Source of the DNA: Rhizobiales bacterium 62-47 | GTDB taxonomy: Bacteria > Pseudomonadota > Alphaproteobacteria > Rhizobiales > Xanthobacteraceae | Assembly (NCBI GenBank): GCA_001899255.1 | Contig: MKVX01000013.1 | Location: 62,001 to 126,000, forward strand | Length of the DNA: 64,000 bases | Direction: 5' to 3' | In this document: positions 1,249-17,230 of the stretch, one piece after another | Numbering within the stretch: position 1 is the first letter of the stretch | How the letters are laid out: each line of letters opens with the position of its first letter | Notes under the pieces: model-generated | The model's database searches: none | What the model was told of the DNA's origin: nothing | What the model saw: only the letters and a program-made list of their open reading frames with translations | Position numbers and translations under genes: made by a program

Positions 1249-1286
1249 CCAATTCCCCGCAACAGGCCTCTGCCGTCGATGGCAGA

Positions 1287-1306
1287 CAATTGTCTATACA
1301 TAATTG
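1287..1306. promoter_or_regulatory. Candidate HutC operator, copy 1
   Basis: This 20-bp site reads CAATTGTCTATACATAATTG. It is an imperfect inverted repeat, with CAATT...AATTG arms around a TGT-N4-ACA core, the form typical of HutC-subfamily GntR operators. An identical copy lies 32 bp further on, and hutC itself is two genes away. It sits about 40 bp upstream of the hutI start. Binding by HutC is inferred from context. Confidence 0.7.
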
Positions 1307-1318
1307 CCGAACGGCTTT

Positions 1319-1338
1319 CAATTGTCTATACATAATTG
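1319..1338. promoter_or_regulatory. Candidate HutC operator, copy 2
   Basis: This is an exact second copy of the 20-bp palindromic site at 1287-1306, ending 24 bp before the chosen hutF start. The 32-bp repeat period is about three DNA turns, so two HutC dimers could bind the same face. One copy probably serves each divergent arm (hutI-hutG and hutF-hutC). Confidence 0.7.
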
Positions 1339-1362
1339 ACCAGATCAGGGAGGCCGACCGGA

Positions 1363-2775: not shown

Positions 2776-3520
2776 TATTCGGAGATTGCGGCGGACGAGT
2801 CCGCGAACCAACGGCGTGGCGCGCTATACCGAAATCCAACGTGCACTTGAGACCGCGATTTTTTCGGGAGACTGGCCGCCGGGCACCCGCGTGCCTTCAG
2901 AGCAGGAATTGCTGAAGCGCTATCGCTGCTCACGCATGACGGTCAACAAGGCATTGAGTGCGCTCGCTGCTTCGGGGCTGGTCGTTCGTCGCCGCCGTTC
3001 CGGCAGCTTTGTCGCGCAGCGTCAAGGCGAGAAGAACGTTCTGCAGATTCACGACATCGAAGAGGAAATTCAGCGTGAGGGGAAATCCTACCGCGTCAAG
3101 CTGGTATCGCGCAGCGAACGCAAGGCGACCAAGCGAGATGCCGCGCGCCTAGATGTGCCGGTGTCCACGCGCATACTGGCGCTGACTTGCGTGCATTATG
3201 GCGAAGAACGCCCGCTGGTCGCGGAGGATCGATTAATCAACCTCGATGCGGTGCCATCGGCGACGGAAGTGGACTTCAACGAAACGTCACCGGGAAACTG
3301 GTTGTTGAAGCAGGTGCCGTGGAGCGAGGCCGAACATCATATCCGGGCAGTCAATGCCAGTGAGGATATCGCGGAACATCTCGAGATCACCGAAGGCGAA
3401 GCCTGTCTCGTTGTGGAGAGAAGGACGCGGCATGGTGGGCGCTCCATTACTCACGTCGTGCTGTCATATCCCGGCGACGGGTATCAACTCGTCGCGCGCT
3501 TCAGTCCGTCGCAGGGGTGA
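2768..3520 (+). CDS. hutC: Histidine-utilisation repressor, GntR/HutC family
   Basis: The 250-residue regulator has an N-terminal winged helix-turn-helix at about residues 20-88, with the GntR signature PSEQELLKRY then SRMTVNKAL. A UTRA ligand domain follows at about 95-240. In characterised systems HutC represses hut genes and releases DNA on binding urocanate. The start at 2768 overlaps the end of hutF by 8 bases and has AGGAGA about 8 bases upstream; a longer in-frame reading from 2693 lies inside hutF and is rejected. The likely targets are the two identical palindromes at 1287 and 1319. Placement at the end of the hutF arm implies autoregulation. Confidence 0.92.
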   Translation: MPDIRRLRRTSPRTNGVARYTEIQRALETAIFSGDWPPGTRVPSEQELLKRYRCSRMTVNKALSALAASGLVVRRRRSGSFVAQRQGEKNVLQIHDIEEEIQREGKSYRVKLVSRSERKATKRDAARLDVPVSTRILALTCVHYGEERPLVAEDRLINLDAVPSATEVDFNETSPGNWLLKQVPWSEAEHHIRAVNASEDIAEHLEITEGEACLVVERRTRHGGRSITHVVLSYPGDGYQLVARFSPSQG

Positions 3521-3652: not shown

Positions 3653-4417
3653 ATGACCTCGGCCATTTCGATGCCGGCCGGCGACTTCTTTATCGGGCCG
3701 ATGGTGTTCGGGAAGGTTGGGAGTACCGGGGCGTTTCGCGCCGTGGACAACCTCAACCTGGCGGTCCGTCCGGGCCAGATGTTGGCGCTGCTTGGCAAGA
3801 CCGGTTGCGGGAACTCGACCATCTTCAACATGGTCGCCGGCCTCACCGAACCGTCGGAGGGGACGGTGCGGGTCGATGGCCGCGATCCGTTCGCCGAGTT
3901 CGGTTCGCTTCGTGGCAAGATGGCCATCGTGTTTCAGGGCGACCGCCTGCTGCCTTGGCGCAGTGCTATCGCCAACGTCGAATTCGGGCTGGAGTTGCTT
4001 GGCGTCGCGCCTGCCGAGCGGCGGGCCACTGCGCAACTGTGGTTGTCCAAGCTGGGTTTAGGTGGTCACGAGCAGGATTTTCTGCACGCACTCTCGGGCG
4101 GCATGAGCCAGCGTGTTTCCATCGCGCGTGCATTTGCGACCAACGCCAGCATCCTGCTCTGCGATGAGCCGTTTTCGGCGCTGGATGAAGCGACAGCAGG
4201 CAAGCTTTGTGCGGAGTTCGTGCGGCTGGTGAAGGAAAACGGCAAGACCGCCATTCTCATCACGCACTCGATCAGCGAGGCTCTTGAGATCGGCGATCGG
4301 ATCTTCGTGCTGAAACGTCCCGCAGAGATCGCGTATGATGTGAGCTTCAACAGCGAAACGAGCACAGAAGAACGCGGCAAGATCCGGGCGCGGATCGGCG
4401 AGGTGCTCGCCTGCTAA
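3653..4417 (+). CDS. Orphan ABC ATPase of the nitrate/sulfonate/taurine type with altered Walker A
   Basis: The 254-residue protein has the layout of SsuB/TauB/NrtD-type ATPases: Q-loop in VFQGDRLLPW, signature LSGGMSQR, Walker B ILLCDEPFSALD and H-loop LITHS. The Walker A reads GKTGCGNS at residues 48-55, so the nucleotide-binding lysine is replaced by Asn54 (codon AAC at 3812-3814). That change normally abolishes ATP hydrolysis. No permease or binding-protein gene adjoins it, although import ATPases of this type work with both. It follows hutC by 132 bases, so it may be a relic of a histidine or urocanate importer. Either it is decaying, or it relies on another partner. Confidence 0.85.
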   Translation: MTSAISMPAGDFFIGPMVFGKVGSTGAFRAVDNLNLAVRPGQMLALLGKTGCGNSTIFNMVAGLTEPSEGTVRVDGRDPFAEFGSLRGKMAIVFQGDRLLPWRSAIANVEFGLELLGVAPAERRATAQLWLSKLGLGGHEQDFLHALSGGMSQRVSIARAFATNASILLCDEPFSALDEATAGKLCAEFVRLVKENGKTAILITHSISEALEIGDRIFVLKRPAEIAYDVSFNSETSTEERGKIRARIGEVLAC

Positions 4418-4447
4418 GCTGCAGGCCGCCGAACAACGAGCAGCTTC

Positions 4448-5551
4448 CTAGGTGACGGAGCGCGGGCCCAGCGAACCGAAAGCGTCGGGGTCGTAGGCCA
4501 GCTTGTATTGCATATCGGCAGCAAGGATCGGCTGCTTGCAACGGTCGCAAATGACCGATGCATGGAAGTCGTGCCCGCAGGTGTTATGCCTGAGCAGGAG
4601 CGGTGGCTTACCCTTAGAAAGCCAGCGGTCGCCCCATTGCAACATGACGATGAACGGCCCGTAGAGGTCGCGTCCCATGTCGGTGAGGAGATATTCGTAG
4701 CGGTCGGGTGAGCTCTGATATTGCCTGCGGTGGAAGACACCGCTCGCGACGAGGCGGGAGAGCCGATCGGTCAGGATATTCGGCGCAATTGCCAGTTCGG
4801 TCAGGATTTGATCGTAGCGTCGTTTGCCGAAGAAGGCCTCGCGCACGACCATGAAGCTCCATTTGTCGCCGATGATCTGCAGCGCGCGCGAGACCGAACT
4901 CGGGCGCCCAAGCAGGAAGCGGTTTCCGTCAGAGGCCCGCCGGGTATTGCGGCCGGCCTTTGCGGCGTGGCGGCCGGCGCCGGGTCCGTCGCGGTAAGTC
5001 ACGTCCCGCGCCGTGACGCTTTCGCCGCAATGAGAGCACGCCACCAAAGGATGGCTGTCGCAGCCGCAACTCATGTGAACCAGCGTCAAGGGCGCCGGTC
5101 TTTTATCGGCAAGCCAGCGATCGCCGAATTGCATCAAGGCGACGAAGCTTGGGTACAGATCGAACCCCATCTTCGACAGCCGATATTCCTTGCGTTGCGA
5201 TGAGGCGGTCGCAGCCTGACGAAAGATCGCGAGCTGCGTCAGCTTCTTCAAACGATCCGTGAGCGTCGCGCGCGGAATGCCGAGCGCTGACCGGAATGCT
5301 TCGAATGTGCGTGTGCCGAAGAACGCTTCGCGAATGATCAGAAATGCCCAGGCGTCGGAAACGATGTCGAGGGTTCGCGCGACCGAACAATTCCTCTCGT
5401 GCCGCGCGCTGCTCGACCGGGCCTTCGTCGGCAGCGGAGTCGGTCTGGATGGAAGGTTCGCGGTCCGTGCTTTGTTGGTGGCGGGCATCTTTTTGTTCTT
5501 GTTGCAAGCGAGGGATTCGGGGCCGTTTCGAGAGGTGCGCTCGTTTAACAC
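4448..5551 (-). CDS. Tandem-duplicated HxlR-family transcriptional regulator
   Basis: The 367-residue protein (from a GTG at 5551) contains two complete HxlR units; family members usually have one of about 100-150 residues. Unit 1 winged helix spans about 54-150 and unit 2 about 218-313, each with the REAFFG segment and a TDRL recognition region. Each is followed by a small Cys/His cluster of equal spacing: C162-x-C164-x7-C172-x2-C175 and C325-x-H327-x7-C335-x2-C338, which look like metal sites. An ATG at 5488 is an alternative start that removes 21 low-complexity residues; neither start has a strong ribosome-binding site. It is divergent from the catabolic operon and is its likely regulator. 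Confidence 0.85.
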   Translation of the reverse strand: MLNERTSRNGPESLACNKNKKMPATNKARTANLPSRPTPLPTKARSSSARHERNCSVARTLDIVSDAWAFLIIREAFFGTRTFEAFRSALGIPRATLTDRLKKLTQLAIFRQAATASSQRKEYRLSKMGFDLYPSFVALMQFGDRWLADKRPAPLTLVHMSCGCDSHPLVACSHCGESVTARDVTYRDGPGAGRHAAKAGRNTRRASDGNRFLLGRPSSVSRALQIIGDKWSFMVVREAFFGKRRYDQILTELAIAPNILTDRLSRLVASGVFHRRQYQSSPDRYEYLLTDMGRDLYGPFIVMLQWGDRWLSKGKPPLLLRHNTCGHDFHASVICDRCKQPILAADMQYKLAYDPDAFGSLGPRSVT

Positions 5552-5580
5552 ATCATCGCGATTGACTCCCAGGAAATTTA

Positions 5581-5623
5581 AGTCTAGTTATGCATGTAAC
5601 AAAAGTCTAGATATGCTAGTAAC
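5581..5623. promoter_or_regulatory. Tandem 20-bp direct repeat, candidate operator of the double HxlR regulator
   Basis: Two copies of a 20-bp element (5581-5600 and 5604-5623, period 23) differ at only three positions. Each contains AGTCTAG, TATGC and GTAAC blocks, and the first copy also has GTTA...TAAC inverted ends. The pair lies in the divergent gap between the HxlR gene and the binding-protein gene, 45-87 bases before the latter's start. A doubled site next to a doubled HxlR protein suggests one operator half per unit. Binding itself is inferred. Confidence 0.6.
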
Positions 5624-5667
5624 AAGCCGGAGCGAACCGGGTTCAGATAGTTCCAGGAGGAATGGAT

Positions 5668-6894
5668 ATGACGGCCGGAATACAGAAAACTCTGATCGCC
5701 GCAGCTGCGGCGGCTCTCTTTGGCGGCACCGCAGTGGCACAGACCGCCGCGGTTTCTGATGATGTCGTCAAGATTGGCGTGCTGACCGATATGTCCGGCC
5801 AATTCTCGCACGAATCCGGTGAAGGCGCGGTCACGGCGGTCAAGATGGCCGTCGAGGATTTCGGCGGCAAGGTGCTGGGCAAGCCTATCGAAGTTGTGGT
5901 TGCCGATCATCAAAACAAGCCCGATGTGGCTTCGACGCTGGCGCGCAAATGGTTCGATGTCGAGAAGGTCGACATGATCGCCAACCTGATCAACTCGTCG
6001 ATCGCGCTGAGTGTTTCCCAGCTTGCGAAAGAGAAAGATCGTATCGCCATCGTCAATGGCTCCGGTTCGTCGCGCCTGACCAACGACGCCTGCACACCGA
6101 ACAGCATCCACTATGCGTATGACACCTACGCTCTCGCCAAAGGGACTGGCGCGGCGATGCTGAAGGCTGGTGAGAAGAGCTGGTACTTCCTCACGGCCGA
6201 CTACGCGTTCGGACATGCGCTGGAGGCCGACACCAGCGCTATCGTCAAGTCGCTCGGCGGCGAGGTCGTCGGTGCAACGCGTTATCCGCCGGAAACCTTC
6301 GACCAATCGTCGTTTCTGCTGAAGGCGCAGGCGTCGAAAGCCAAGGTGGTGGCGCTGGCCGGTTCGGGAACGGTGCTGGTGAATGCCGTCAAGTCGGCGC
6401 AGGAATTCGGTATCCGCAAAGGCGGGCAGGAACTGGCGGGATTGTTGGTCTGGATCACCGACATCAAGAGCATGGGACTCGATCTTGCACAGGGCCTCGT
6501 GTTGACCAATGCCTTCTACTGGGATCGCGACGACGAGACGCGCGCATGGTCGAAGCGTTTCTATGAGCGGATGAAGCGGATGCCGCATATGGGCGATGCC
6601 GGCGACTATTCGTCGACCATGCATTATCTGAAGGCCATCAAGGCCGCCGGTACGGACGATGCGAAGGCGGTGATGAGCAAGATGCGCGAACTGCCGGTCA
6701 ACGACTTCTTCGCCAAGAATGGCAAGATCCGCGACGACGGGCGCATGGTGCACGATATGTACGTCTACGAAGTCAAGAAGCCGTCCGAGTCGAAGGGCGA
6801 ATGGGACTACTACAAGCTGCGTGAAGTGATCCCGGGCGATCAGGCTTTCCGCCCGCTCAAGGATAGCGCCTGCCCATTGGTCAAGAAGGGTTGA
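5668..6894 (+). CDS. Periplasmic substrate-binding protein, branched-chain amino acid/aromatic acid type
   Basis: The 408-residue protein is a Peripla_BP_6 family binding protein. An N-terminal secretion signal (about residues 1-24, ending AVAQ) precedes the mature start. The segment KIGVLTDMSGQFS is the family's first strand. I chose the ATG at 5668 because AGGAGG at 5655-5660 lies 7 bases upstream; an ATG at 5662 is too close to it. It is the first gene of the catabolic operon. No permease or ATPase for this transporter class is present in the window, so it must share a transporter encoded elsewhere or act in sensing. Related proteins in Rhodopseudomonas bind aromatic acids; the ligand here is unknown. 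Confidence 0.9.
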   Translation: MTAGIQKTLIAAAAAALFGGTAVAQTAAVSDDVVKIGVLTDMSGQFSHESGEGAVTAVKMAVEDFGGKVLGKPIEVVVADHQNKPDVASTLARKWFDVEKVDMIANLINSSIALSVSQLAKEKDRIAIVNGSGSSRLTNDACTPNSIHYAYDTYALAKGTGAAMLKAGEKSWYFLTADYAFGHALEADTSAIVKSLGGEVVGATRYPPETFDQSSFLLKAQASKAKVVALAGSGTVLVNAVKSAQEFGIRKGGQELAGLLVWITDIKSMGLDLAQGLVLTNAFYWDRDDETRAWSKRFYERMKRMPHMGDAGDYSSTMHYLKAIKAAGTDDAKAVMSKMRELPVNDFFAKNGKIRDDGRMVHDMYVYEVKKPSESKGEWDYYKLREVIPGDQAFRPLKDSACPLVKKG

Positions 6895-6905
6895 TGTCGG
6901 CGCAT

Positions 6906-6929
6906 CGGAGGATTTTCCAAAGTCCTCCG
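6906..6929 (+). other. Intercistronic stem-loop after the binding-protein gene
   Basis: CGGAGGA (6906-6912) pairs perfectly with TCCTCCG (6923-6929) around a 10-base loop. It starts 12 bases after the stop codon and has no T-run, so it is not a classical terminator. Stem-loops in this position often protect the upstream binding-protein mRNA and lower expression of downstream enzymes. Confidence 0.5.
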
Positions 6930-6989
6930 ACGCGGCGCCAAGAGGTGTGCTCACCGCACGGTCGTGGGCACGAAGCGAAGGCTTTCGAG

Positions 6990-8561
6990 ATGGATCAGAA
7001 ATTTGTTTCGGGTGGCGACGTGGTGCCTACGGGTAACGCGATCAGCTCGGGGGCCGAATATATCAACAGCTTGAGAGGGCGAAATCTGAAGGTCTATCTG
7101 ATGGGCGAATTGGTCGCCGAGCCGGTGGACCATCCGATCATCAGGCCTTCGATCAACGCGGTCGCGGAAACCTATGACCTTGCGCTGAGCAATCCGGAGC
7201 TTGCCTCGACCACGTCGCCGCTGACCGGCGAGCGAATCAATCGCTTCCTCCATATTGCGACGAGCCAGGCCGATCTCGTGATGCAAAACAAGATGCAGCG
7301 CCGTCTTGGGCAGATCACAGGGACCTGCTTCCAGCGCTGCGTCGGCATGGACGCTTTGAATTCGCTGCATTCGGTGACTTTCGACATCGATCGCAAATGC
7401 GGTACCGACTATCACAGTCGCTTCAACGCATTCCTCAGGCGGATGCAGCAATCGAATCTGGTCATCGGTGGTGCCATGACCGATGTGAAAGGGGATCGCG
7501 GCAAGTCTCCATCACAGCAGGTAGATCCGGATCTGTTTGTTCATGTCACGCGTCGTACGCCGCAGGGGATCTATGTCAGCGGCGCAAAGGCGCATCAGAC
7601 CGGATGTCTGAATTCGCATTGGCTCATCATCATGCCAACCATGCGGCTCGATGCGGCGGACAAGGACTACGCCATCGTCGGTGCGCTGCCGGTAAATGCG
7701 AACGGCATCACTTACATTTACGGCCGGCAATCATGCGACAGCCGGAGTGCCGAAGCTGGCGATATCGACGCAGGCAATGCGCGGTTCTCGGGTCAGGAAG
7801 CGATGATCGTGCTCGAGGACGTGTTCATCCCGAACGAGCACGTCTTCATGGACGGCGAGGTCGAGTTTGCCGCCGATCTGGTCGAGCGATTTACCTGTTA
7901 TCACCGCCGCAGTTACGTTTGTAAGACCGGTGTCGGCGATGTTTTGATCGGTGCCGCGGCGACTATTGCCGATTATAACGGCGTCGAGCGAGCCTCCCAC
8001 GTGCGCGACAAGCTGGTCGAAATGACCCACCTCAATGAAACGATCTATGGGGCGGGCATCGCCGCAAGCCATCAAGGCACCGAGACGAGTTCTGGCGCCT
8101 ATCTTCCTGACGAAATGCTTGCCAATGTGTGCAAGCATCACGTCACGCGATTGCCCTACGAGATTGGCCGGCTGGCCCAGGATCTCGCCGGCGGGTTGAT
8201 GGTGACGCTGCCGTCGGAGCGCGATCTGCGGCACGAAACGATTGGGCCGTTGATCGAGAAGTATCTGAAGGGGCGCTCCGACATCGCCACCGAGGACAGG
8301 ATCAGAATTCTGCGTCTGGTCGAGAACATGACGCTCGGTCGAAACGCCGTTGGCTATCTGACGGAATCCATGCACGGCGCAGGATCGCCGCAGGCGCAGC
8401 GGATTCAGATCGCTCGGGCAATGCAGATTGAATACAAGAAGGAGCTGGCCAAGACGCTCGCGGGGATCGATTGTGCTGCGCGCGACGAGATCGCAGACGA
8501 CCTTTCGTCCTATATGGCGCGGGTATTTAGACCCGTCGAAAATGTAGGTCGGTCGACATGA
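6990..8561 (+). CDS. 4-hydroxybutyryl-CoA dehydratase-family flavoprotein (HpaB superfamily)
   Basis: The 523-residue protein belongs to the 4-hydroxyphenylacetate 3-hydroxylase / 4-hydroxybutyryl-CoA dehydratase superfamily. Cysteines C113-x3-C117 in GTCFQRC, then His305 and Cys311 in YHRRSYVC, match the positions of the four [4Fe-4S] ligands of the clostridial dehydratase (C99, C103, H292, C299 as I recall them). Plain FADH2 monooxygenases of the superfamily lack these. The His-to-Cys spacing is one residue shorter than in that enzyme. The segment ESMHGAGSPQAQ near residue 460 also fits the dehydratase branch. The ATG at 6990 is preferred; an upstream in-frame extension lies in the leader. 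A radical dehydration or isomerisation of a hydroxyacyl-CoA is inferred. Confidence 0.8.
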   Translation: MDQKFVSGGDVVPTGNAISSGAEYINSLRGRNLKVYLMGELVAEPVDHPIIRPSINAVAETYDLALSNPELASTTSPLTGERINRFLHIATSQADLVMQNKMQRRLGQITGTCFQRCVGMDALNSLHSVTFDIDRKCGTDYHSRFNAFLRRMQQSNLVIGGAMTDVKGDRGKSPSQQVDPDLFVHVTRRTPQGIYVSGAKAHQTGCLNSHWLIIMPTMRLDAADKDYAIVGALPVNANGITYIYGRQSCDSRSAEAGDIDAGNARFSGQEAMIVLEDVFIPNEHVFMDGEVEFAADLVERFTCYHRRSYVCKTGVGDVLIGAAATIADYNGVERASHVRDKLVEMTHLNETIYGAGIAASHQGTETSSGAYLPDEMLANVCKHHVTRLPYEIGRLAQDLAGGLMVTLPSERDLRHETIGPLIEKYLKGRSDIATEDRIRILRLVENMTLGRNAVGYLTESMHGAGSPQAQRIQIARAMQIEYKKELAKTLAGIDCAARDEIADDLSSYMARVFRPVENVGRST

Positions 8562-8595
8562 ACTTACCAGCATTGGCAAGCCGTGGAGTTCTGCG

Positions 8596-9045
8596 GTGAG
8601 CAATCGGCCGAAGCCAGAGTCCCGAAGCGCCTTCCCGCATTTCTACGAGATGACGACGCGGTGGGGCGACAACGATGCTTATCGCCACATGACAAACGTT
8701 GTCTATCTGTCGTTCTTCGATTCGGCTGTGTGCCGGTACCTGATCGAGAACGGAGTTCTTGATGTCGAAGCCAGCGCGGTCATCGGAATGGTGGCCGAAA
8801 CCCATTGCAGCTATTTCAAAGAGATCAGCTTCCCGTCCGTCATCAACGTCGGCCTTCGCATTGGCGAACGGGGCAATAGCAGCATTCGGTACGAGATTGG
8901 CTTGTTTCGCGATAGTGACGACCTTGCCTGCGCTCAGGGATACCTTGTCCACGTTTATGTCGAACGCAAAACCGGTCGCCCAGTGCCGATCCCGGATGAC
9001 ATACGCCATGCGGTTGCACCGCTGCGTCAACGTCACATCGCTTAA
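8596..9045 (+). CDS. Hot-dog fold acyl-CoA thioesterase
   Basis: The 149-residue protein is of the YbgC / 4-hydroxybenzoyl-CoA thioesterase type. The signature stretch is RWGDNDAYRHMTNVVY, with the aspartate-containing D-x-D-x-x-x-H-x-N-N-like motif near the N terminus. The start is a GTG at 8596 with GGAG about 7 bases upstream. It lies 34 bases after the dehydratase-like gene and 18 before the CoxG-like gene, within the same operon. It would release the free acid and CoA from a pathway intermediate or a dead-end thioester. The substrate cannot be read from the sequence. Confidence 0.86.
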   Translation: MSNRPKPESRSAFPHFYEMTTRWGDNDAYRHMTNVVYLSFFDSAVCRYLIENGVLDVEASAVIGMVAETHCSYFKEISFPSVINVGLRIGERGNSSIRYEIGLFRDSDDLACAQGYLVHVYVERKTGRPVPIPDDIRHAVAPLRQRHIA

Positions 9046-9063
9046 CCGGGGGAGAGTGCAGCC

Positions 9064-9528
9064 ATGGACATGTCTGGCAGGATCGAACTGAAGGCCCCGA
9101 AACAGCGCGTGTGGGAATCGCTTAACGATCCCGAGATCCTGAAGGCCTGCATTCCGGGGTGTGCGAGTCTCGAAAGGACGGCGGACGATGGGTTTGCCGT
9201 GGTTGCCGTGCTGAAGGTCGGACCGATCAAAGCCAAATTCCAGGGGAGGGTGCGCCTGCTCGATATCGTAGCACCCACAAGTTACACGATCAGCGGGGAA
9301 GGCCATGGCGGAATTGCCGGCTTTGCTGCCGGTAGCGCCAAGGTCGCGCTTGAGGAAATCGATCCGCAGACAACCGAGTTGTCGTATTATACCGAAGCCA
9401 AGGTCGGCGGCAAAATCGCACAGCTTGGCGCGCGTCTGATCGATTCCACCGCAAAGAAACTCGCAGGTCAGTTCTTCGAACAGTTCAGTCTGCAGGTGAG
9501 TGGCCAGGCTGTTTCCGACAACAACTAG
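9064..9528 (+). CDS. CoxG-like SRPBCC protein
   Basis: The 154-residue protein has the CoxG pattern: it starts with MSGRIELKAPKQRVWESLND and carries the conserved CIPGC segment, here KACIPGCASLER, then GHGGIAGFAAGSAKV. CoxG proteins accompany molybdenum hydroxylases and in Oligotropha help attach CO dehydrogenase to the membrane. The GGGGGAG ribosome-binding site lies about 6 bases before the ATG at 9064. Its place just before the molybdenum-enzyme subunits suggests it recruits that enzyme to the membrane or to a quinone-linked acceptor. It lacks the long C-terminal hydrophobic tail of some CoxG proteins. Confidence 0.85.
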   Translation: MDMSGRIELKAPKQRVWESLNDPEILKACIPGCASLERTADDGFAVVAVLKVGPIKAKFQGRVRLLDIVAPTSYTISGEGHGGIAGFAAGSAKVALEEIDPQTTELSYYTEAKVGGKIAQLGARLIDSTAKKLAGQFFEQFSLQVSGQAVSDNN

Positions 9529-9561
9529 CCGGACGTTGCAGGCAAGACAGGGATAGAGACC

Positions 9562-10326
9562 GTGGCTGACATTGAATGCGCTGTGGAGGGCAGGGTTGCA
9601 ACGGTGACGTTGAATCGTCCGGCCATGCGCAATGCGATGACATTATCGATGTGGAAAGGCATTGCAGAGATTTTCAAGCAGCTTGGCGAAAATCGCGAGG
9701 TCCGGGCCATCATCTTCACCGGTGCCGACGGTAACTTCAGCGTCGGGGCGGACGTCTCGGAATTCGCTGCCGTACGGTCGAGTGCGCGCGATAGTGCCGA
9801 CTATGAAGTCGCGGTTGATGCGTCGTCCGACGCTATAGCCGGGGTACCGCAACCTGTTATTGCCGTTGTCGAGGGGTATTGTCTTGGTGGCGGGTGTCAC
9901 CTGTCGATGGCGTGCGACTTTCGCTTTGCTGACCCGACAGCTCAATTCGGCATTCCTTCCGCCAATCTGTCAATCATCTACGGGGTTCGAAGCACCAAGC
10001 GGCTCCTGGGGTTGGTGGGGCTCACGAAAGCCAAACGCATCCTCTACGCTGCCGAGCGCATCGCGGCGAGCGACGCCATGCATGTCGGTCTTGTCGATCA
10101 TCTGGGTGCCGATGCGAAAGGCGATGCTCGGACCTTTGCCGAGCAGATGGCCGAAAAGGCGCCGCTATCGATAGCAGGCGCCAAGTACATTCTGAACCAG
10201 ACCGCCATGGGAGAAAGCGGTTCGCTTGCGCAGGCGATGATCGATCATGCGTCGGATAGCGAAGACTATCGCGAGGCGCGACAGGCGTTTGCCGCAAAGC
10301 GGCTCCCCCGATTCAAGGGGCATTGA
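9562..10326 (+). CDS. Crotonase-superfamily protein lacking both catalytic glutamates
   Basis: The 254-residue protein has a complete crotonase fold. NFSVGADVSEF and GYCLGGGCHLSMACD give the oxyanion-hole and CoA-binding elements. In enoyl-CoA hydratase the catalytic residues are Glu144 in GGCEL and Glu164 in FGQPE. Here the aligned positions are His113 (GGCHL) and Ser133 (FGIPS), so simple hydration of an enoyl-CoA is unlikely. Crotonases with other residues act as hydrolases, dehalogenases or C-C lyases. HmfE of the 2-furoate pathway is a crotonase-family hydrolase that also sits beside a molybdenum dehydrogenase. GTG start at 9562. Only 2 bases separate it from the next gene. Confidence 0.85.
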   Translation: MADIECAVEGRVATVTLNRPAMRNAMTLSMWKGIAEIFKQLGENREVRAIIFTGADGNFSVGADVSEFAAVRSSARDSADYEVAVDASSDAIAGVPQPVIAVVEGYCLGGGCHLSMACDFRFADPTAQFGIPSANLSIIYGVRSTKRLLGLVGLTKAKRILYAAERIAASDAMHVGLVDHLGADAKGDARTFAEQMAEKAPLSIAGAKYILNQTAMGESGSLAQAMIDHASDSEDYREARQAFAAKRLPRFKGH

Positions 10327-10328
10327 CG

Positions 10329-11207
10329 ATGAAGCCACCGCCGTTCGACTATTTCGCCGCCGATAGTATCGAGGCCGCCGTCCAGGCGCTCGCCGATGCC
10401 GGCGGCGACGGCAAGATTATCGCTGGCGGTCAAAGCCTCATGCCGATGCTCAATTTTCGGCTGCTGCGCCCGTCGGTGCTGATCGACATCAACCGAATCC
10501 CCGACCTCGCTTACGTGCGCGATGACGGAGAGTGTATTCGGATCGGCCCGTTGACGCGGCATCGTACGCTGGAAACCTCAAGTCTCGTCGCGGAACAGCT
10601 GCCGGTGTTGCATGAGGCGATGGGATACGTCGCACATCTGGCCATTCGCAATCGCGGTACGATCGGCGGAAGTCTCTCGCATGCCGATCCTGCTGCGGAA
10701 CTGCCGATGATGTCGTTGCTGTTGGACGCGCGCCTGGAGATTCAGTCGTTATCCGGGCGCCGGACAATCGATGCGCGGGATTTCTTTCTTGGGGCGCTGA
10801 CGACCGATCTCGACGAAGGCGAAATGCTGGTGGAGGTAAGGCTGACCAAGTTGCGCAAAGGAACCGGCTGGGCATTTGAGGAAGTCGCGCGCCGCTCGGG
10901 TGATTTTGCGCTGGCGTCCGTAGGGATCACTCTGAGTCATGACGACGGCAAGATATCCAATGTGCGAATTGGATTGATGGGCGTCGGCGAGACACCGATG
11001 CGTGCAACTGACGCGGAGAGCCTGCTGGCTGGGCAGCCCTTCAGTGAAACGGTGGTTACTGCGGCGGTCGACTCGATCCGTCGAACTGTCGAACCGAACA
11101 CCGATTTGCACGCATCGTCAGATTACCGGCGGCATCTGGTCGGGGTTCTGGCCGAGCAGGCGCTTTCAAAGGCTTGGCAACGAGCGACGCAGGCTGCCCA
11201 TGACTGA
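10329..11207 (+). CDS. Molybdenum hydroxylase, FAD-binding subunit (CoxM-like)
   Basis: The 292-residue protein is a medium subunit of the xanthine dehydrogenase / CO dehydrogenase family. FAD-binding elements are visible: AGGQSLMPML near residues 33-42 and RNRGTIGGSLSHADP at about 105-120. It carries electrons from the 2Fe-2S subunit to the final acceptor. I chose the ATG at 10329 because AAGGGG lies about 9 bases upstream; a TTG at 10323 is too close to it. The gene is followed by the 2Fe-2S subunit with an 8-base overlap. Confidence 0.92.
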   Translation: MKPPPFDYFAADSIEAAVQALADAGGDGKIIAGGQSLMPMLNFRLLRPSVLIDINRIPDLAYVRDDGECIRIGPLTRHRTLETSSLVAEQLPVLHEAMGYVAHLAIRNRGTIGGSLSHADPAAELPMMSLLLDARLEIQSLSGRRTIDARDFFLGALTTDLDEGEMLVEVRLTKLRKGTGWAFEEVARRSGDFALASVGITLSHDDGKISNVRIGLMGVGETPMRATDAESLLAGQPFSETVVTAAVDSIRRTVEPNTDLHASSDYRRHLVGVLAEQALSKAWQRATQAAHD

Positions 11208-11700
11208 ACCCGTCGTCATTCGGATCACTGTCAATGGTGTCGAATATGAGAAGTCCGTCGAGCCGCGACTTCTGCTCTCCGATTTTCTGCGCAATGACCT
11301 CGGCCTGACCGGGACTCATGTGGGGTGCGAGCATGGCGTTTGCGGCGCCTGCACGGTGCTGGTCAATGGTGAGAGCGCGCGATCCTGTCTGTTTCTGGCC
11401 GTGCAACTCGATGGTGCGCAGGTTGAGACCGTGGAAGGCCTTGGAACGGCGCATGCGATGCATCCAATTCAGCAGGCGTTTCACGAATGCCATGCCTTGC
11501 AGTGCGGCTTCTGTACGCCAGGCATGTTGATAACAACCGTCGATCTGCTGAAGAAATTCCCGGAAGCCGATGACGAGCAAATTCGTGAAGGGCTGTCCGG
11601 CAATCTCTGCCGCTGCACCGGCTACCAGAACATCGTTCGCGCGGTGCGTATGGCCGCAGATGAACTCAAGGCTCGCGAAGTCAAAGAGGCCGCCTCATGA
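11200..11700 (+). CDS. Molybdenum hydroxylase, 2Fe-2S subunit (CoxS-like)
   Basis: The 166-residue protein shows all eight cysteines for two [2Fe-2S] clusters: C43, C48, C51 and C63 (CEHGVCGAC then SC), and C102, C105, C137 and C139 (QCGFC and CRC). It passes electrons from the molybdenum centre to the FAD subunit. The start at 11200 overlaps the FAD-subunit stop by 8 bases, and the stop overlaps the next gene as ATGA. An upstream in-frame extension to 11002 lies wholly inside the FAD gene and is rejected. Confidence 0.95.
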
Positions 11701-12458
11701 AAATGCATGTTCTCTCTGGCGGTCGCCTGCGAATGCGGAAGCACATCTACTTTCCGGATGCCGACCGCAACGAGTCGATTGAACTGCCGGTGAACTGCAT
11801 TCTGCTCCGGCATGCAAAGGGCAATGTGCTGTTCGATACCGGCTGTCACCCCGATGTCGTGCGCGATGCCGAGGGGCGCTGGGGCGCTTTGGCGCGCGTG
11901 ATGACGCCGTTGATGTCCGCCGAGGATAACGTTATCAGCCAGTTGAGAGCTATCGGATTATCGCCGGATGATATCGATGTGGTGATTTGTTCGCATTTGC
12001 ATCCGGATCACTGCGGCTGCAATCAATTCTTCTCGAAGGCAAGAATTCTGGTCCGCAACGAGGAGCTGGCTGCGGTCAGGAAGCCCGACGCCGTTGCCGT
12101 TGGCTATCTGCCGGCCGAGTGGGATCATCCACTCAACTACCAGGCCGTAACGACCGATCTCGATGTCTTCGACGACGGTGCGATCCGGTTGGTGCATTTG
12201 CCGGGCCATACGCCGGGGACGATGGGCGCGCTGGTGACCCTGAAGAACAGCGGCCGCTTTTTACTTGCCGCCGATGCGGTCAGTGTCCGCGAGAATCTCG
12301 ATGCTGACATCATCCCGAAGAATACCTGGAACAAGGAGCTTTGCCGCGAAAGTTTCGCGATGGTGCGCCTGATCGAAGCGCAGGGAGCGACTGTGATCTG
12401 TGGACACGATGACGCGCAATGGTCGTCGCTGCGCAAGTTGGCCGACTACTATGACTGA
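11697..12458 (+). CDS. Metallo-beta-lactamase-fold hydrolase, lactonase-like
   Basis: The 253-residue protein has the di-metal motif H100-x-H102-x-D104-H105 in SHLHPDHCG, then His171 (LPGHTPG), Asp193 and His237 (CGHD). Length and spacing resemble AttM/AiiA-type N-acyl-homoserine lactonases. The gene is unusual in place: it sits between the 2Fe-2S and molybdenum subunit genes, overlapping the first by 4 bases and the second by 8. Strict co-translation with the enzyme suggests it acts on the product, for example opening a lactone or hydrolysing a thioester. Quorum quenching is a less likely alternative because of the operon. Confidence 0.86.
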   Translation: MKMHVLSGGRLRMRKHIYFPDADRNESIELPVNCILLRHAKGNVLFDTGCHPDVVRDAEGRWGALARVMTPLMSAEDNVISQLRAIGLSPDDIDVVICSHLHPDHCGCNQFFSKARILVRNEELAAVRKPDAVAVGYLPAEWDHPLNYQAVTTDLDVFDDGAIRLVHLPGHTPGTMGALVTLKNSGRFLLAADAVSVRENLDADIIPKNTWNKELCRESFAMVRLIEAQGATVICGHDDAQWSSLRKLADYYD

Positions 12459-14886
12459 TGCGTCGTTGAAGGCAGTTGACGAGCGGCAGGACGGCGTTGC
12501 CGAGGAACTTGCCACGCGCCCCAAGATTATCGGGGCACGCGTCAAGCGGACCGAGGATCCACGTCTGCTGACCGGGAAGGGTGCCTATGTCGACGATCGG
12601 AAGGTCGCCGGCATGCTGCACGTCGCATTCCGGCGGAGCGATCACTCTCATGCCCTGATCAAGTCGATCGATGTCAGTGCGGCACGTCAGGCGGCCGGTG
12701 TCGTTGCCGTGCTGACGGCGGAGGATATGTCGGAGATCAATGCGGTCTTCGCCACATCGCGGATGAGGGATTATCACACCACGCCGATCACCGCGTTGGC
12801 AAGCAAGAAGGTGCGTTATGTCGGAGAACCGATTGTCGGCGTCGTCGCTAAGAGCCGTTATCTTGCGGAAGATGCGCTCGAACTGATCGAGGTCGAATTT
12901 GAGCCGCTGCCGGTGGTCATCGATCCCGAAACAGCCTGCCTCCCTTCCGCAGCAGTACTGCATGATGATGCAGGTACCAATGTTCTCTGTTTTCGCGAAT
13001 TCAAAACCGGAGACGCGGACGCCGCCATTGCAAGCGCGCCGATCCGCGTCTCCGGTCGTTTCCGGTTTTATCGCAAGACGCCGGTGGCAATGGAGAATCG
13101 CACCTATCTCGCCGAATACGAGGTCGGTCGCGATGAACTGACTCTCTACACATCGTCGCAGGTGCCGGGAATCATTCGCGACGCGTTATCGGATGCTCTC
13201 GATATGCCGGGAAGCCAACTCCGCGTTATCGCGCCGGATGTCGGTGGCGGCTTCGGCGGCAAGGCTTCCCTGTATCCCGAAGAGATATTTGTCGCCGTTG
13301 CCGCGCGCCGCCTCGGATGTGCGGTGAAATGGACCAGCGACCGGATGGAGGATCTGGCGGCCACCAGTCAGGGCTTTGACCAGATCGTCAACGCCGAACT
13401 GGCGTTGGATGCGAATGGCAACGCCGTGGCGCTCAAGGCCGATGTGATTGGCGATGTCGGAGCATATTCGATCTACCCGTGGACGGCAGTGATCGAGCCG
13501 GTTCAGGTCGTCAGCTTTCTCCCGGGGCCCTACAAGATCGCCAACTATCTCGGGCGCGTGCGCGGCGTTGCGACTTCCAAGCCGCCGACCGGGCCGTATC
13601 GAGGCGTGGGGCGGCCGACGTCGACCTTCGTTACGGAGCGTCTGATGGATATGGCCGCCCAGCGGCTCGGCATGGATCCGGTTGCGCTACGCCTGCGCAA
13701 CATGATCCAGCCTGACGAATTTCCGCATCGCATTGGCTCAGGTATCATTTGGGATCAATGCGCTTTCACCGAATGCCTCAACGCCGCTTGCGATAAGGTT
13801 GATTATCCGACGCTGCGCGCCAGACAGGCGCAGGCACGCGCGGCCGGCCGTTGGTTCGGAATTGGCGTCGCGTGCTACGCCGAGTTGACCGGAATTGGAT
13901 CGCGCATCTCGGTGGCACCGGGAATGCCGATCAATACCGGCACGGAAACCGCCAAGATCACCATCGATTCGACCGGCGCCGTCACCGCGGCGTTCGGCGT
14001 CACGGCGATGGGGCAGGGCTTGGAAACCACGTTGGCTCAAGTCGTCGCCGAGCATCTCGGTGGCCGCGTCAAAGACATCCGCGTCATTCAGGGGGACAGC
14101 GCGGCAGTTCCAAACGCCACCGGAAGTTATGCCAGCCGCAGCGCTGTGTTGGCCGGCGGTGCGGCAACACTCGCCGCCAAGGAAGTCAAAGACAAGATCA
14201 TTCGGGCGGCTTCGCATCTTCTCGAAACCGGACCGGAAGATCTCGTCGTCGAGGACGGCAAGGTTTCTGTTGTCGGCACGGATCGGGCGTTGACCTTCCG
14301 GCAGCTGGCGCGTGCCGTCTATCTGGAGATGAGGCGTATTCCTGCCGACAAGCGGGAAGAGCTGGCGTCAACCAAGACGTACGACCCGGTGTTCGGTACC
14401 AGCGCCACGGCAGCGCATCTCGCCGTCGTCGAGATCAATCCGGATACCTTGGAAATCAAGCTTGAGCGGTTCGTCGTCGCCGAGGATTGCGGTCGGCTGA
14501 TCAATCCGATGATCGTCGACGGCCAGGTACATGGCGGTGTGGCGCAGGGCATCGGCGCGGCTCTGTACGAGGAAGTCGTCTACAACGACGAAGGCCAGAA
14601 CGTCACCGCCAGTCTCGTCGACTACATCATCCCGACCGCGACTGAAATTCCCCCCATCGAGGTGGTGCATATCGAAGCGGCCTCGCTGACGACACTCGGC
14701 GGCTTCCGCGGCATGGGCGAGGGCGGCACGATCGGCGCGCCTGCTGCCGTTGCCAACGCCGTTGCGGACGCCGTCGCGCCGCTAGGTATCGATATCCTCG
14801 AACTTCCAGTTTCACCCGAACGGCTTTTTCGGCTGATCGAAAACAGCAAACAGCACAAGGACGCAACGCATGGACATGAAACTTAA
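12451..14886 (+). CDS. Molybdenum hydroxylase, molybdopterin subunit (CoxL/xanthine dehydrogenase-like)
   Basis: The 811-residue protein is a full-length large subunit. DVGGGFGGK at 263-271 and GMGEGG at 754-759, with the catalytic Glu757, mark the molybdenum site. The active-site loop reads PPTGPYRGVGRPT at 378-390. This lacks the AYRCSFR cysteine loop of true CO dehydrogenase, so CO is not the substrate; the form resembles form-II CoxL-like enzymes. It should hydroxylate or dehydrogenate a ring or acyl-CoA using water oxygen. The start at 12451 overlaps the metallo-hydrolase by 8 bases. No XdhC/CoxI- or MocA-type maturation gene is visible nearby. Confidence 0.93.
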   Translation: MTDASLKAVDERQDGVAEELATRPKIIGARVKRTEDPRLLTGKGAYVDDRKVAGMLHVAFRRSDHSHALIKSIDVSAARQAAGVVAVLTAEDMSEINAVFATSRMRDYHTTPITALASKKVRYVGEPIVGVVAKSRYLAEDALELIEVEFEPLPVVIDPETACLPSAAVLHDDAGTNVLCFREFKTGDADAAIASAPIRVSGRFRFYRKTPVAMENRTYLAEYEVGRDELTLYTSSQVPGIIRDALSDALDMPGSQLRVIAPDVGGGFGGKASLYPEEIFVAVAARRLGCAVKWTSDRMEDLAATSQGFDQIVNAELALDANGNAVALKADVIGDVGAYSIYPWTAVIEPVQVVSFLPGPYKIANYLGRVRGVATSKPPTGPYRGVGRPTSTFVTERLMDMAAQRLGMDPVALRLRNMIQPDEFPHRIGSGIIWDQCAFTECLNAACDKVDYPTLRARQAQARAAGRWFGIGVACYAELTGIGSRISVAPGMPINTGTETAKITIDSTGAVTAAFGVTAMGQGLETTLAQVVAEHLGGRVKDIRVIQGDSAAVPNATGSYASRSAVLAGGAATLAAKEVKDKIIRAASHLLETGPEDLVVEDGKVSVVGTDRALTFRQLARAVYLEMRRIPADKREELASTKTYDPVFGTSATAAHLAVVEINPDTLEIKLERFVVAEDCGRLINPMIVDGQVHGGVAQGIGAALYEEVVYNDEGQNVTASLVDYIIPTATEIPPIEVVHIEAASLTTLGGFRGMGEGGTIGAPAAVANAVADAVAPLGIDILELPVSPERLFRLIENSKQHKDATHGHET

Positions 14887-15622
14887 AGGTAAAGTCGCAC
14901 TCGTCACAGGTGCGGCGCGGGATGTCGGGCGTGAGATTGCGCTCAGTCTCGCCGCCGAGGGGGCGGCGGTTGCCGTGAACTATCGGGGTTCGAAAGATCT
15001 GGCTGATGAAGTCGTTGCGGAAATCACGCGCAATGGCGGCAAAGCCATCGCCTATGGGGCCGACGTATCTGATTTCGCCGCTGTGCAGGCGATGGTTAGC
15101 AAGATCGTTGCCGATTTCGGCGGATTGAACATCGTCGTCAACAATGCCGGCGTCGCGCTGCGCAATCGCTTCGTCGAAACGACTCCTGCGGAGTGGGAGA
15201 AGCAGATCAACATCTGTCTCTATGGCGCTATCCACATTTCCAAGGCAGCCGCGCCGCATTTGGAGAAGGCTGGCGACGGCCGGATCATTGCCATGATAGG
15301 AGATTCTTCGCGGGTTGGTGAGTCCGGTTTGGCAATCGTAGCGGCCGCACGCGCCGGGGTCATCGGATTGATGAAATCGCTCGCGCGCGAATTCGGCCGC
15401 TTCGGCACAACGGCAAATGTCATCTCTCTCGGGCTTATCGAGACGGCGCACGATCGGGCTTGGGTCGATGCTAACCGCGACAAGCTGACTAAGTTTTATC
15501 CGCTTCGCCGCCTCGGATTGCCGCAGGATATCGCTCCGACGGTGACGCTGCTGGCGTCGCCACATGGAGGCTGGATCACCGGACAGGTGATCAGCATCAG
15601 TGGTGGATTCAGTATGGTCTAG
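14870..15622 (+). CDS. SDR-family protein without the catalytic Tyr-Lys pair
   Basis: The 250-residue protein has the classical SDR Rossmann fold: TGAARDVG at 13-20 for nucleotide binding and NNAG at 91-94. The catalytic YxxxK motif is missing. The aligned segment reads VAAAR at 157-161, so Tyr is Val157 and Lys is Arg161. A normal SDR dehydrogenase mechanism is therefore improbable. AAGGA lies about 8 bases before the ATG at 14870, and the gene overlaps the molybdenum subunit by 17 bases. It may be a non-catalytic partner or use another chemistry. The NAD(P)-binding part looks intact. Confidence 0.88.
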   Translation: MDMKLKGKVALVTGAARDVGREIALSLAAEGAAVAVNYRGSKDLADEVVAEITRNGGKAIAYGADVSDFAAVQAMVSKIVADFGGLNIVVNNAGVALRNRFVETTPAEWEKQINICLYGAIHISKAAAPHLEKAGDGRIIAMIGDSSRVGESGLAIVAAARAGVIGLMKSLAREFGRFGTTANVISLGLIETAHDRAWVDANRDKLTKFYPLRRLGLPQDIAPTVTLLASPHGGWITGQVISISGGFSMV

Positions 15623-15652
15623 TGAAAATACAGTCGCAGTAAGGGAAGAGAA

Positions 15653-17230
15653 ATGCTACGGACGGATTTGATAGCGCCGGTTGCGACGCTTATTCAACGC
15701 CACGCTGATGAGCGCGGCAGCAAGATCGCATTTGAAGATGCCAATAGCAAAGTCACCTATGGTGAATTGGCCAGCCGGACCGCAAATCTAGCGGGGCATC
15801 TGGTCGAACTTGGCGTAAATGCCGGCGATACCGTGGCGATTTTCCTTCCCAACAGCGTGCATTGGGTCGAGTCTTGTTTTGCCATTACGCGAGCGGGCGC
15901 CATCGGCGTGCCAATTAGCTACGATGCGACCGAGAGCGAGATCGCGTATCGTCTTCAGGATGCATCCTGCAAGGTTATCATCACCACCGATGAGCGCGCT
16001 CCGCTGCTCGCCGCGATCAAGAACGAATGTCCGGCATTGGCCACGACGATCCTTGTCGAGCGAGGCGCGGAAAGAGGCACGGGCCTGCGTTTTAGCGATC
16101 TTGTCTCGATCAAGCCAAGGTCGGAGCCGCGCGATCCATCTTCAATTCACGAGCCAGCCTATATCATCTACACGTCGGGAACGACGGGGCGGGCGAAGGG
16201 CGTTCTACTGTCGGTTCACAGCATGTTGTGGATCACGGCGTCTTGCTGGGCGCCGATCGCAATGTTGTCCGAGAAAGACCGTGTTCTTTCGCCGCTACCG
16301 TTGTTTCATTCCTATGCGCTGAATTTGTCGGTGCTCGCCATCCTCGCTGCCGGCGCTAGCGAATACATCATGGAGAAGTTCTCGACCAGCGAAGCGACAC
16401 GATTGCTGGAGAGCGGTTCGTTCACGTTGTTTCCGGGCGTGCCAACCATGTTTCACTATCTGCTCGAGACCGCCAAAGGAAACGCCAAGAATAATCTCAA
16501 GGCCCATCTGAAAGGCCTTCGGCTGGCGATCTCGGCGGGTGCGATCATGCCGGCAACGCTGAATCGGGAATTCGAAGCGCATTTCGGCATCAAGTTGCTC
16601 GACGGTTATGGCATTACCGAAACCGCAACGATGGTCACCATGAACTGGCCGTCAGGTGGACGGGTGTTGGGGTCTTGCGGCCTGCCAGTGCCGGGTCTCG
16701 CTGTCCGAATTGTTGATGCGGCTACCGGGAAAGACGTGCCGATCGGCAGTGAAGGCGAGTTGATCGTTCGCGGTCCGAATGTGATGATCGGATACCATAA
16801 CAAGCCGGATGAAACCGCCAAGGCACTTCGTGACGGCTGGTATCATACCGGTGATCTGGCCAAGAGCGACGAGAACGGCTTCCTGACGATTACAGGCCGT
16901 CTAAAGGAACTCATCATTCGTGGCGGTCAGAACATTGCACCGGCCGAAATCGAAGAAGTCGTCAGCATCATCGATGGTATTGTCGACAATGCAGTGGTGG
17001 GCCTTCCGCACCAACATCTCGGCGAAGTGCCGGCGTTGTTTGTCGTCAAGCATCGCGACCGCGACATTGGCGCACAACAAATTCTCGATCACTGCAAGGG
17101 GCGGCTGTCGGCCTATAAGGTGCCGTTCTCGGTACACTTCGTCGATGAGATTCCTCGGACAGGTTCGGGCAAGATTATCCGGTTCAAACTGCGCGATATT
17201 CTCCTCAAACCGGAGAACAAGGCATCCTAA
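15653..17230 (+). CDS. AMP-dependent acyl-CoA ligase
   Basis: The 525-residue protein belongs to the ANL superfamily. The P-loop YTSGTTGRAKG lies near residues 175-190, YGITETA at about 323, YHTGDLAK and GRLKELIIRGG near 400-425, and the catalytic lysine motif PRTGSGKI near 503. It activates a carboxylic acid to an acyl-AMP and then to the CoA thioester, so it probably starts the pathway encoded upstream. AAGGGAAGAG precedes the ATG at 15653. It is the last gene of the operon. It resembles long-chain and aromatic acid ligases alike, so the chain or ring substrate cannot be told. Confidence 0.92.
   Translation: MLRTDLIAPVATLIQRHADERGSKIAFEDANSKVTYGELASRTANLAGHLVELGVNAGDTVAIFLPNSVHWVESCFAITRAGAIGVPISYDATESEIAYRLQDASCKVIITTDERAPLLAAIKNECPALATTILVERGAERGTGLRFSDLVSIKPRSEPRDPSSIHEPAYIIYTSGTTGRAKGVLLSVHSMLWITASCWAPIAMLSEKDRVLSPLPLFHSYALNLSVLAILAAGASEYIMEKFSTSEATRLLESGSFTLFPGVPTMFHYLLETAKGNAKNNLKAHLKGLRLAISAGAIMPATLNREFEAHFGIKLLDGYGITETATMVTMNWPSGGRVLGSCGLPVPGLAVRIVDAATGKDVPIGSEGELIVRGPNVMIGYHNKPDETAKALRDGWYHTGDLAKSDENGFLTITGRLKELIIRGGQNIAPAEIEEVVSIIDGIVDNAVVGLPHQHLGEVPALFVVKHRDRDIGAQQILDHCKGRLSAYKVPFSVHFVDEIPRTGSGKIIRFKLRDILLKPENKAS

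Follow-up and report, generated by a model that had tools for sequence, protein, structure and literature searches.

The window analyzed here, a stretch of 64,000 nucleotides from Rhizobiales bacterium 62-47 (contig MKVX01000013.1), carries an operon of eleven genes in which a 4-hydroxybutyryl-CoA dehydratase (HBD) is combined with a three-subunit molybdenum hydroxylase (MoM, MoS and MoL). In comparison with related loci, the cluster splits into a trunk, made up of the hydroxylase, a short-chain dehydrogenase-fold protein (SDR), a lactonase-family protein (MBL) and often an acyl-CoA ligase (LIG) and a crotonase-fold protein (ECH), and exits that are exchanged between genomes. We consider it fairly probable that the operon encodes a catabolic pathway of modular build that yields 4-hydroxybutyryl-CoA or 4-hydroxybutyrate. 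The gene families, residues, synteny and exit exchange were obtained by computation, and from them we infer the reactions and the substrate. An earlier, sequence-only reading of this DNA had proposed an undescribed CoA-dependent catabolic operon that joins a radical-type dehydratase to a molybdenum hydroxylase; taken as a whole, that interpretation is partly supported.

The dehydratase and its cluster ligands

By its sequence and all four cluster ligands, the flavoprotein is a 4-hydroxybutyryl-CoA dehydratase. In phmmer comparisons it aligns nearly end to end with 6vjr (810 bits; named vinylacetyl-CoA delta-isomerase) and 1u8v (577 bits; named gamma-aminobutyrate metabolism dehydratase/isomerase), the best HpaB-type monooxygenase chain reaching 134 bits. 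C99, C103, H292 and C299 of 1u8v, which we take to be the [4Fe-4S] ligands, correspond on the alignment to C113, C117, H305 and C311 of the window protein; these four are invariant in 81/81 rows (the window HBD and 80 fetched relatives), and the H-to-C ligand spacing of HBD is one residue shorter than that of 1u8v. Seven places that presumably serve the cluster and active site of 1u8v (C99, Q101, C103, H292, Y296, C299 and K300) are likewise identical in all 81 rows. Together with the CoxLMS-type hydroxylase, whose MoL aligns with 1t3q in the MGEGG glutamate region, this full-length similarity bears out the CoA-linked catabolic operon first proposed.

Recurrence of the trunk

A comparison of gene order in relatives, which had been suggested at the outset, showed that the gene set recurs. 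ECH, MoM, MoS, MBL, MoL, SDR, LIG, the substrate-binding protein (SBP), HBD and an HxlR regulator occur together in 13 of 18 Bradyrhizobium loci, and because nine genes and a regulator recur in this way, their association is more than chance. The usual order there is ECH-MoM-MoS-MBL-MoL-SDR-LIG, then the regulator and SBP-HBD, mostly with the accessory gene CoxG after them; among the 13 complete clusters L009 and L012 showed no CoxG, and none showed the thioesterase (TE). The other five loci are cut by a contig end (L007), partial (L015) or hold HBD without the cluster (L013, L020 and L027). Many genera of the window's family have trunk genes too, as do plasmids of Aminobacter, Sinorhizobium, Agrobacterium, Rhizobium etli and Bradyrhizobium.

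MBL was detected in 43 of 296 genomes of the window's family (E<=1e-60), and its surroundings were fetched in the 42 genomes other than that of the window, in some cases as short contigs only. SDR is present in 35 of the 43 (E<=1e-75). Wider searches at E<=1e-70, both of which include the window in their count, found it in 10 of 385 genomes of the class and 2 of 398 of the phylum. Across the 11 distinct class and phylum genomes (window included), SDR and MoL always lie within about 4 kb of one another and directly adjoin in 10; in G597 MoL is about 3 kb from SDR, behind CoxG, MoM, MoS and MBL. The hydroxylase and SDR are the most widely kept pair observed. A minimal pathway lacking LIG and ECH, considered on the basis of L208, was rejected for G597, in which the contig with MoL also carries both genes, some 17-20 kb away from it.

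Two other arrangements of these families were seen. In L222, L226, L229 and L231, MBL and SDR accompany another molybdenum hydroxylase, whose MoL is about 40% identical, and each map shows a PadR-like regulator. The same lactonase family (58-62%) occurs without the trunk molybdenum genes in L015, L173, L176, L182 and L184, beside genes resembling those of acyl-CoA dehydrogenases and, in some cases, of CoA-transferases and of ECH; these clusters are perhaps a sister pathway for other lactones.

Exchangeable exits

Exits were counted in 46 loci of at least 13 kb that carry SDR, MBL and LIG above identity thresholds, excluding the window and four re-fetched duplicates. HBD alone was present in 16, an alcohol dehydrogenase alone in 18, both in 1 and neither in 11 (naive Fisher p 1.7e-4), while TE occurred with an alcohol dehydrogenase in 19 and alone in 2, the alcohol dehydrogenase never occurred without TE, and 25 had neither (naive Fisher p 5e-11); both p values are only indicative, as the loci are related and the rows non-independent. 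Thus 19 of the 21 TE loci also carry an alcohol dehydrogenase. Among the 11 loci with neither exit, L227 has HBD just past the fetched stretch (L288), the genome of L186 has HBD elsewhere (L015), and in L241 a 111-residue stretch 54% identical to HBD (15047-15382), directly after LIG, looks like a remnant of an HBD exit.

The alternative exit is an iron- or zinc-type alcohol dehydrogenase beside the trunk, often with an aldehyde dehydrogenase, found in many genomes and on Aminobacter, Agrobacterium, Sinorhizobium and Rhizobium etli plasmids. Two of the aldehyde dehydrogenases were scanned, and both pass the succinate-semialdehyde dehydrogenase (SSADH) model TIGR01780 (L167 with 751 and L192 with 732 bits, cut-off 646); that of L167 also passes NCBIfam NF008415, which that of L192 misses by 5 bits. 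Within genus g26 alone, a hand count of 14 SDR genomes gave the iron alcohol dehydrogenase (FeADH) in 10, HBD in 3, both in 1 and neither in 2, a weak complementarity; TE was present in 10/10 of these genomes with FeADH vs 0/4 without it.

In the window genome the best match to the relatives' FeADH is 32% and to their SSADH 43%, with no close homologue of either, in keeping with HBD being the exit there. Two sister genomes of the window's genus (G003 and G004) have the same operon without HBD, with about 150-190 unaligned bases between SBP and TE. Their DNA is 82% identical to the window over 4449-6901 and 77-78% identical from 8597 or 8646 to about 17200; window 4444-8540, HBD included, is 81% identical to Bradyrhizobium.

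Probable repeated recruitment of the dehydratase

The sequence-only reading treated the dehydratase as a fixed part of the operon, a view that is not supported: HBD (E<=1e-120) occurs in 7 of the 43 lactonase genomes (the window, L181, L183, L222, L237, L288 and L290), and elsewhere an alcohol dehydrogenase, often with SSADH, replaces it. HBD is always within one gene of a cluster gene and its position varies; it follows SBP or LIG, faces LIG in convergent orientation, precedes MoM or lies on the opposite strand. In the HBD trees the window protein falls with Bradyrhizobium, and the six cluster HBDs of other genera form a separate clade (Shimodaira-Hasegawa-like approximate likelihood ratio test, SH-aLRT, 100) that is weakly placed near archaeal sequences and L087. 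The beta-proteobacterial L071 (SDR-LIG-HBD) takes a separate position with weak support. Forcing the Bradyrhizobium/window group and the six into one group is 37 log-likelihood units worse (approximately unbiased test, p 0.029), a modest p value from a test whose groups were set by synteny but which was run after the tree had been seen. Cluster HBDs appear to have at least two separate origins within the HBD tree.

That the same exit enzyme seems to have arrived independently is the best argument for the trunk making the substrate of HBD. The swapping of exits, the two or more places in the tree from which HBD comes and its absence from the two sister genomes point to 4-hydroxybutyryl-CoA or 4-hydroxybutyrate as the most likely shared node.

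HBD was also seen apart from the trunk. Copies 66-78% identical to that of the window are found in Saprospiraceae, Woeseiaceae and other mostly uncultivated bacteria (L022-L067 and others), and no trunk was seen within the fetched flanks of loci of this type. The Bradyrhizobium loci L013 and L020 hold copies of 81-82% without the cluster, and the flank of L013 has an iron alcohol dehydrogenase (58%).

Rebuilt active sites in SDR and ECH

SDR and ECH had been taken for an ordinary dehydrogenase and an ordinary hydratase; on alignment neither looks like one, the needed catalytic residues being absent from both. At the places of the classical Asn-Ser-Tyr-Lys tetrad, alignment with PDB chains over 40 rows gives C116 (39/40, with one S), G144 (40/40), V/A/G157 (40/40; V in the window) and R161 (40/40), which sets SDR apart from the classical family, and the glycine-rich nucleotide-binding motif is retained. 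Of the two catalytic glutamates of enoyl-CoA hydratases, both present in E. coli PaaF and CaiD, ECH has neither: H113 and S/A133 stand in their places in 30/30 rows (only rows above 220 residues were counted, 10 shorter ones being dropped), which puts it outside the hydratases. Y140 of ECH, kept in 30/30 rows, aligns with Y140 of the E. coli methylmalonyl-CoA decarboxylase ScpB, an enzyme in which Tyr140 has a role; PaaF, PaaG and CaiD have Pro at this place. No mention of Tyr140 was found among the matches listed in open-access literature on decarboxylase residues. ECH differs from ScpB in having H113 for E113 and A63 for H66, and reaches 134 bits against the cut-off of 257 of the NCBIfam methylmalonyl-CoA decarboxylase model. 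Arguing from how such a site works, we read ECH as decarboxylase-like and outside the methylmalonyl-CoA decarboxylase family proper. We rejected a route in which ECH and SDR would carry out ordinary beta-oxidation within the operon, from a lactone through the 4-hydroxyacid, its CoA ester, crotonyl-CoA and 3-hydroxybutyryl-CoA to acetoacetyl-CoA, because neither protein has the needed residues.

Proposed pathway and substrate

In the pathway we propose, SBP would take up a small cyclic acid, LIG would form its CoA ester, and the molybdenum hydroxylase would add water-derived oxygen next to the ring heteroatom to give a lactone. SDR would work on the product of the hydroxylase, probably reducing an activated C=C with NAD(P)H without the help of a tyrosine acid; MBL would open the lactone to a hydroxy acid, and ECH, where present, would probably decarboxylate a malonyl-type CoA ester. 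In the window HBD would then convert 4-hydroxybutyryl-CoA to crotonyl-CoA by an FAD/[4Fe-4S] radical mechanism, a step better supported than those of the trunk, and crotonyl-CoA is assumed to be finished by ordinary beta-oxidation elsewhere in the genome. In other species TE, the alcohol dehydrogenase and SSADH would lead to succinate. Because TE mostly accompanies exits that need the free hydroxy acid, the trunk product is probably a CoA ester and LIG would act early.

As the substrate, a furan-type acid fits best. Hydroxylation of a ring beside its oxygen is suggested by the lactonase gene between the molybdenum subunits and by the chemistry of furoyl-CoA: for the hmfABCDE 2-furoate pathway of Cupriavidus basilensis and Pseudomonas, the available part of the published account assigns no gene to the lactone hydrolysis step (PMC6678421). 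The boldest concrete proposal is a complete and new 3-furoate pathway that employs all cluster enzymes, which we regard as distinctly unlikely. LIG would form 3-furoyl-CoA and the molybdenum enzyme would hydroxylate C2 to give 2-oxo-2,5-dihydrofuran-3-carbonyl-CoA; SDR would add hydride to the doubly activated C=C to give 2-oxotetrahydrofuran-3-carbonyl-CoA, the tyrosine being dispensable since a stabilised enolate is formed. MBL would open this lactone to (2-hydroxyethyl)malonyl-CoA, which ECH (Tyr140) would decarboxylate to 4-hydroxybutyryl-CoA for HBD, or for TE, the alcohol dehydrogenase and SSADH. If this scheme is true, two fold families (SDR and ECH) perform new chemistry.

Alternative explanations

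Besides the limits on the p values given above, several observations weigh against a common trunk leading to 4-hydroxybutyrate. Loci without an exit make up 11 of the 46, and in the window and the two sister genomes TE stands without an adjoining alcohol dehydrogenase, contrary to its usual pairing. No LIG orthologue (at least 48%) was seen beside the trunk in L210-L215 and L217, some of which have ligases of about 30% nearby; L209 and L216 are too short to judge. An ECH orthologue of at least 50% was found in 5 of 19 SDR-bearing genomes, most of them picked since ECH was not near the cluster, and in G009, G183, G217, G223, G234 and G097, of the same family, the best match is at most 38%. That count does not support a universal need for ECH as decarboxylase, an idea we rejected; genomes lacking it would use either another decarboxylase or a different substrate. 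On plasmids of R. phaseoli (L291) and R. acidisoli (L194) a whole lactonase lies among fragments of MoM, MoS and MoL, so the lactonase can outlast a decayed trunk and be kept without it. Lastly, HBD homologues could act on substituted 4-hydroxyacyl-CoA. The node would then be a substituted 4-hydroxybutyrate, with HBD working on another gamma-hydroxy or beta,gamma-unsaturated acyl-CoA as in the isomerase side reaction known for this enzyme; the name of one close family member, vinylacetyl-CoA delta-isomerase, speaks for this, but the active-site residues are invariant and the aldehyde dehydrogenase of the alternative exit passes SSADH cut-offs, which makes this quite improbable.

The operon might instead salvage lactones or diols, with no ring acid involved: the molybdenum enzyme would be an aldehyde or lactol oxidase turning 4-hydroxybutanal or 2-hydroxytetrahydrofuran into gamma-butyrolactone, MBL would yield 4-hydroxybutyrate, LIG would activate it and HBD would follow. 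MoM and MoS score best against glyceraldehyde dehydrogenase models, below cut-off, G009 has MoM-MoS-MBL-MoL-SDR-LIG-HBD with neither TE nor ECH adjoining, and MBL, FeADH and SSADH match the enzyme set of the blc/att butyrolactone operon. This route appears unlikely, however, as LIG, ECH and TE are kept in clusters whose exit would need no CoA ester, the solved chain nearest to MoL is quinoline 2-oxidoreductase, and SDR is left without a role. A modified Hmf 2-furoate pathway with 2-oxoglutarate as its end product, in which MBL would supply the missing lactone hydrolase and TE would be a 2-oxoglutaryl-CoA thioesterase, gains from the ligase and molybdenum enzyme being as in hmfABCDE, where HmfE is of the crotonase family and lactone hydrolysis lacks a gene as noted above; since HBD, FeADH, SSADH and SDR would be idle though they recur with the trunk, we find it very improbable. 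Quorum quenching, with MBL as an N-acyl homoserine lactonase and an operon that recycles signal molecules, would suit the annotation of plasmid orthologues as N-acyl homoserine lactonase family proteins and the survival of the MBL gene among trunk fragments on the two Rhizobium plasmids. It seems extremely improbable given that MBL scores far under the AttM, AiiA and AhlS cut-offs and that intact clusters pair it with the molybdenum hydroxylase and SDR, superfluous for such a role.

Relation to known systems

The blcABC/attKLM butyrolactone operon of Agrobacterium joins a lactonase, an iron alcohol dehydrogenase and SSADH, and the variant with the alternative exit likewise brings these three together; the cluster adds the molybdenum hydroxylase, LIG, SDR and ECH, and its MBL, with 159 bits against the AttM equivalog cut-off of 390, lies outside the AttM family. 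The 4-hydroxybutyrate branch point and an exit by iron alcohol dehydrogenase are shared with 1,4-butanediol and 4-hydroxybutyrate use in P. putida KT2440, for which none of the three routes named in the available part of the report uses HBD, unlike the window (PMC7090098). HBD itself matches the clostridial and ammonia-oxidising archaeal 4-hydroxybutyryl-CoA dehydratases in sequence and ligand residues, with Nitrosopumilus loci among its relatives. Those enzymes serve 4-aminobutyrate and succinate fermentation or CO2 fixation in the accessible portions of PMC8364193 and PMC7078158, whereas here HBD belongs to a molybdenum-hydroxylase operon.

The parallel with the Hmf furoate pathway that had been drawn from the gene content is apt. 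Both systems have an acid-CoA ligase and molybdenum-dependent hydroxylation of an acyl-CoA ring to a lactone (PMC6678421, available part), and a lactonase-family gene stands among the molybdenum subunits here. Compared by gene set, the cluster is unlike Hmf in this gene, the tetrad-less SDR, TE and exits fitting 4-hydroxybutyrate; MBL, SDR, CoxG, TE and the exits recur beyond a set of ligase, molybdenum enzyme and HmfE, and the probable end product differs from 2-oxoglutarate. Among the matches listed in open-access literature, judged by title and the start of the abstract, the gene set is not described (subscription papers fall mostly outside this scope). The parts belong to known families; their combination, the exit swap and the two rebuilt active sites are undescribed as far as could be seen. 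If our reading is true, soil and symbiotic bacteria have more than once taken up, as the exit of a degradation pathway, an enzyme known chiefly from fermentation in clostridia and CO2 fixation in archaea. The natural exchange of exits points to the intermediate even before any substrate is known, making the pathway directly testable. For the lactone opening of the furoate route, to which no gene is assigned, there would also be a candidate type of enzyme, and SDR and ECH would be two conserved families that combine familiar folds with rebuilt active sites.

Organization of the locus

ORF coordinates together with NCBIfam and Pfam scans, from which families were assigned, confirm the eleven co-directional genes and the families named by the sequence-only reading (Table 1; nearest solved chains by PDB comparison). 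The tightly packed block on the + strand runs over 5662-17230; the end first given stands, and the start first given, 5581, takes in some upstream DNA. SBP and HBD are 95 bases apart if HBD starts at ATG 6990, or overlap by 4 with a TTG start at 6891. The HBD-TE, TE-CoxG and CoxG-ECH gaps are 34, 18 and 33; ECH and MoM overlap by 4 or are separated by 2, depending on which of two starts is used; the successive overlaps from MoM through SDR are 8, 4, 8 and 17, and the SDR-LIG gap is 30. Simple scans gave 3 promoter sites vs 4.5 expected and 11 terminators vs 10.5 expected.

Table 1. Genes of the operon and the divergent regulator, with positions in the window
Gene	Product	Position	Strand	Basis
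HxlR2	Tandem HxlR-type regulator, divergent from the operon	4448..5551	-	Two HxlR stretches
SBP	LivK-type periplasmic substrate-binding protein	5662..6894	+	Peripla_BP_6, E 2e-109; nearest solved chain 3i09
HBD	4-Hydroxybutyryl-CoA dehydratase family (HpaB/HBD)	6990..8561	+	Similarity to 6vjr and 1u8v; cluster ligands
TE	4HBT-type acyl-CoA thioesterase	8596..9045	+	Pfam 4HBT_2; nearest solved chains 2av9, 2o6b
CoxG	Molybdenum hydroxylase accessory protein	9064..9528	+	COXG, E 1e-37
ECH	Crotonase fold without the two hydratase glutamates	9562..10326	+	Pfam ECH_1; PDB and E. coli alignments
MoM	FAD subunit of molybdenum hydroxylase	10329..11207 (alternative start TTG 10323)	+	NCBIfam matches below cut-offs
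MoS	2Fe-2S subunit	11200..11700	+	NCBIfam matches below cut-offs
MBL	AttM/AiiA-like metallo-hydrolase, putative lactonase, between MoS and MoL	11697..12458	+	AttM family, 159 bits
MoL	Molybdopterin subunit	12451..14886	+	Quinoline 2-oxidoreductase 1t3q, 550 bits
SDR	Short-chain dehydrogenase fold without catalytic tetrad, motif GDSSR	14870..15622	+	PDB alignment; 40 rows
LIG	AMP-forming acyl-CoA ligase	15653..17230	+	AMP-binding and C-terminal domain

A gene like HxlR2 is in the same cluster in 13/13 complete Bradyrhizobium clusters and in many relatives. For SBP, identity reaches 95% with the two sister genomes and 81-92% with the complete Bradyrhizobium clusters; elsewhere it is lower. MBL has the HxHxDH motif in the aligned rows, and its nearest solved chains are acyl-homoserine lactonases.

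Just upstream of the operon, window 46-3520 holds genes that, read from their ORFs, resemble those of histidine use (imidazolonepropionase, formiminoglutamate deiminase and a HutC-type regulator); none were noticed in related loci, though no search aimed at them was made. An orphan NitT/TauT-type ABC ATPase gene at 3653-4417 (+) is possibly non-functional; its Walker A motif reads GKTGCGNST, with Asn where Lys is expected.

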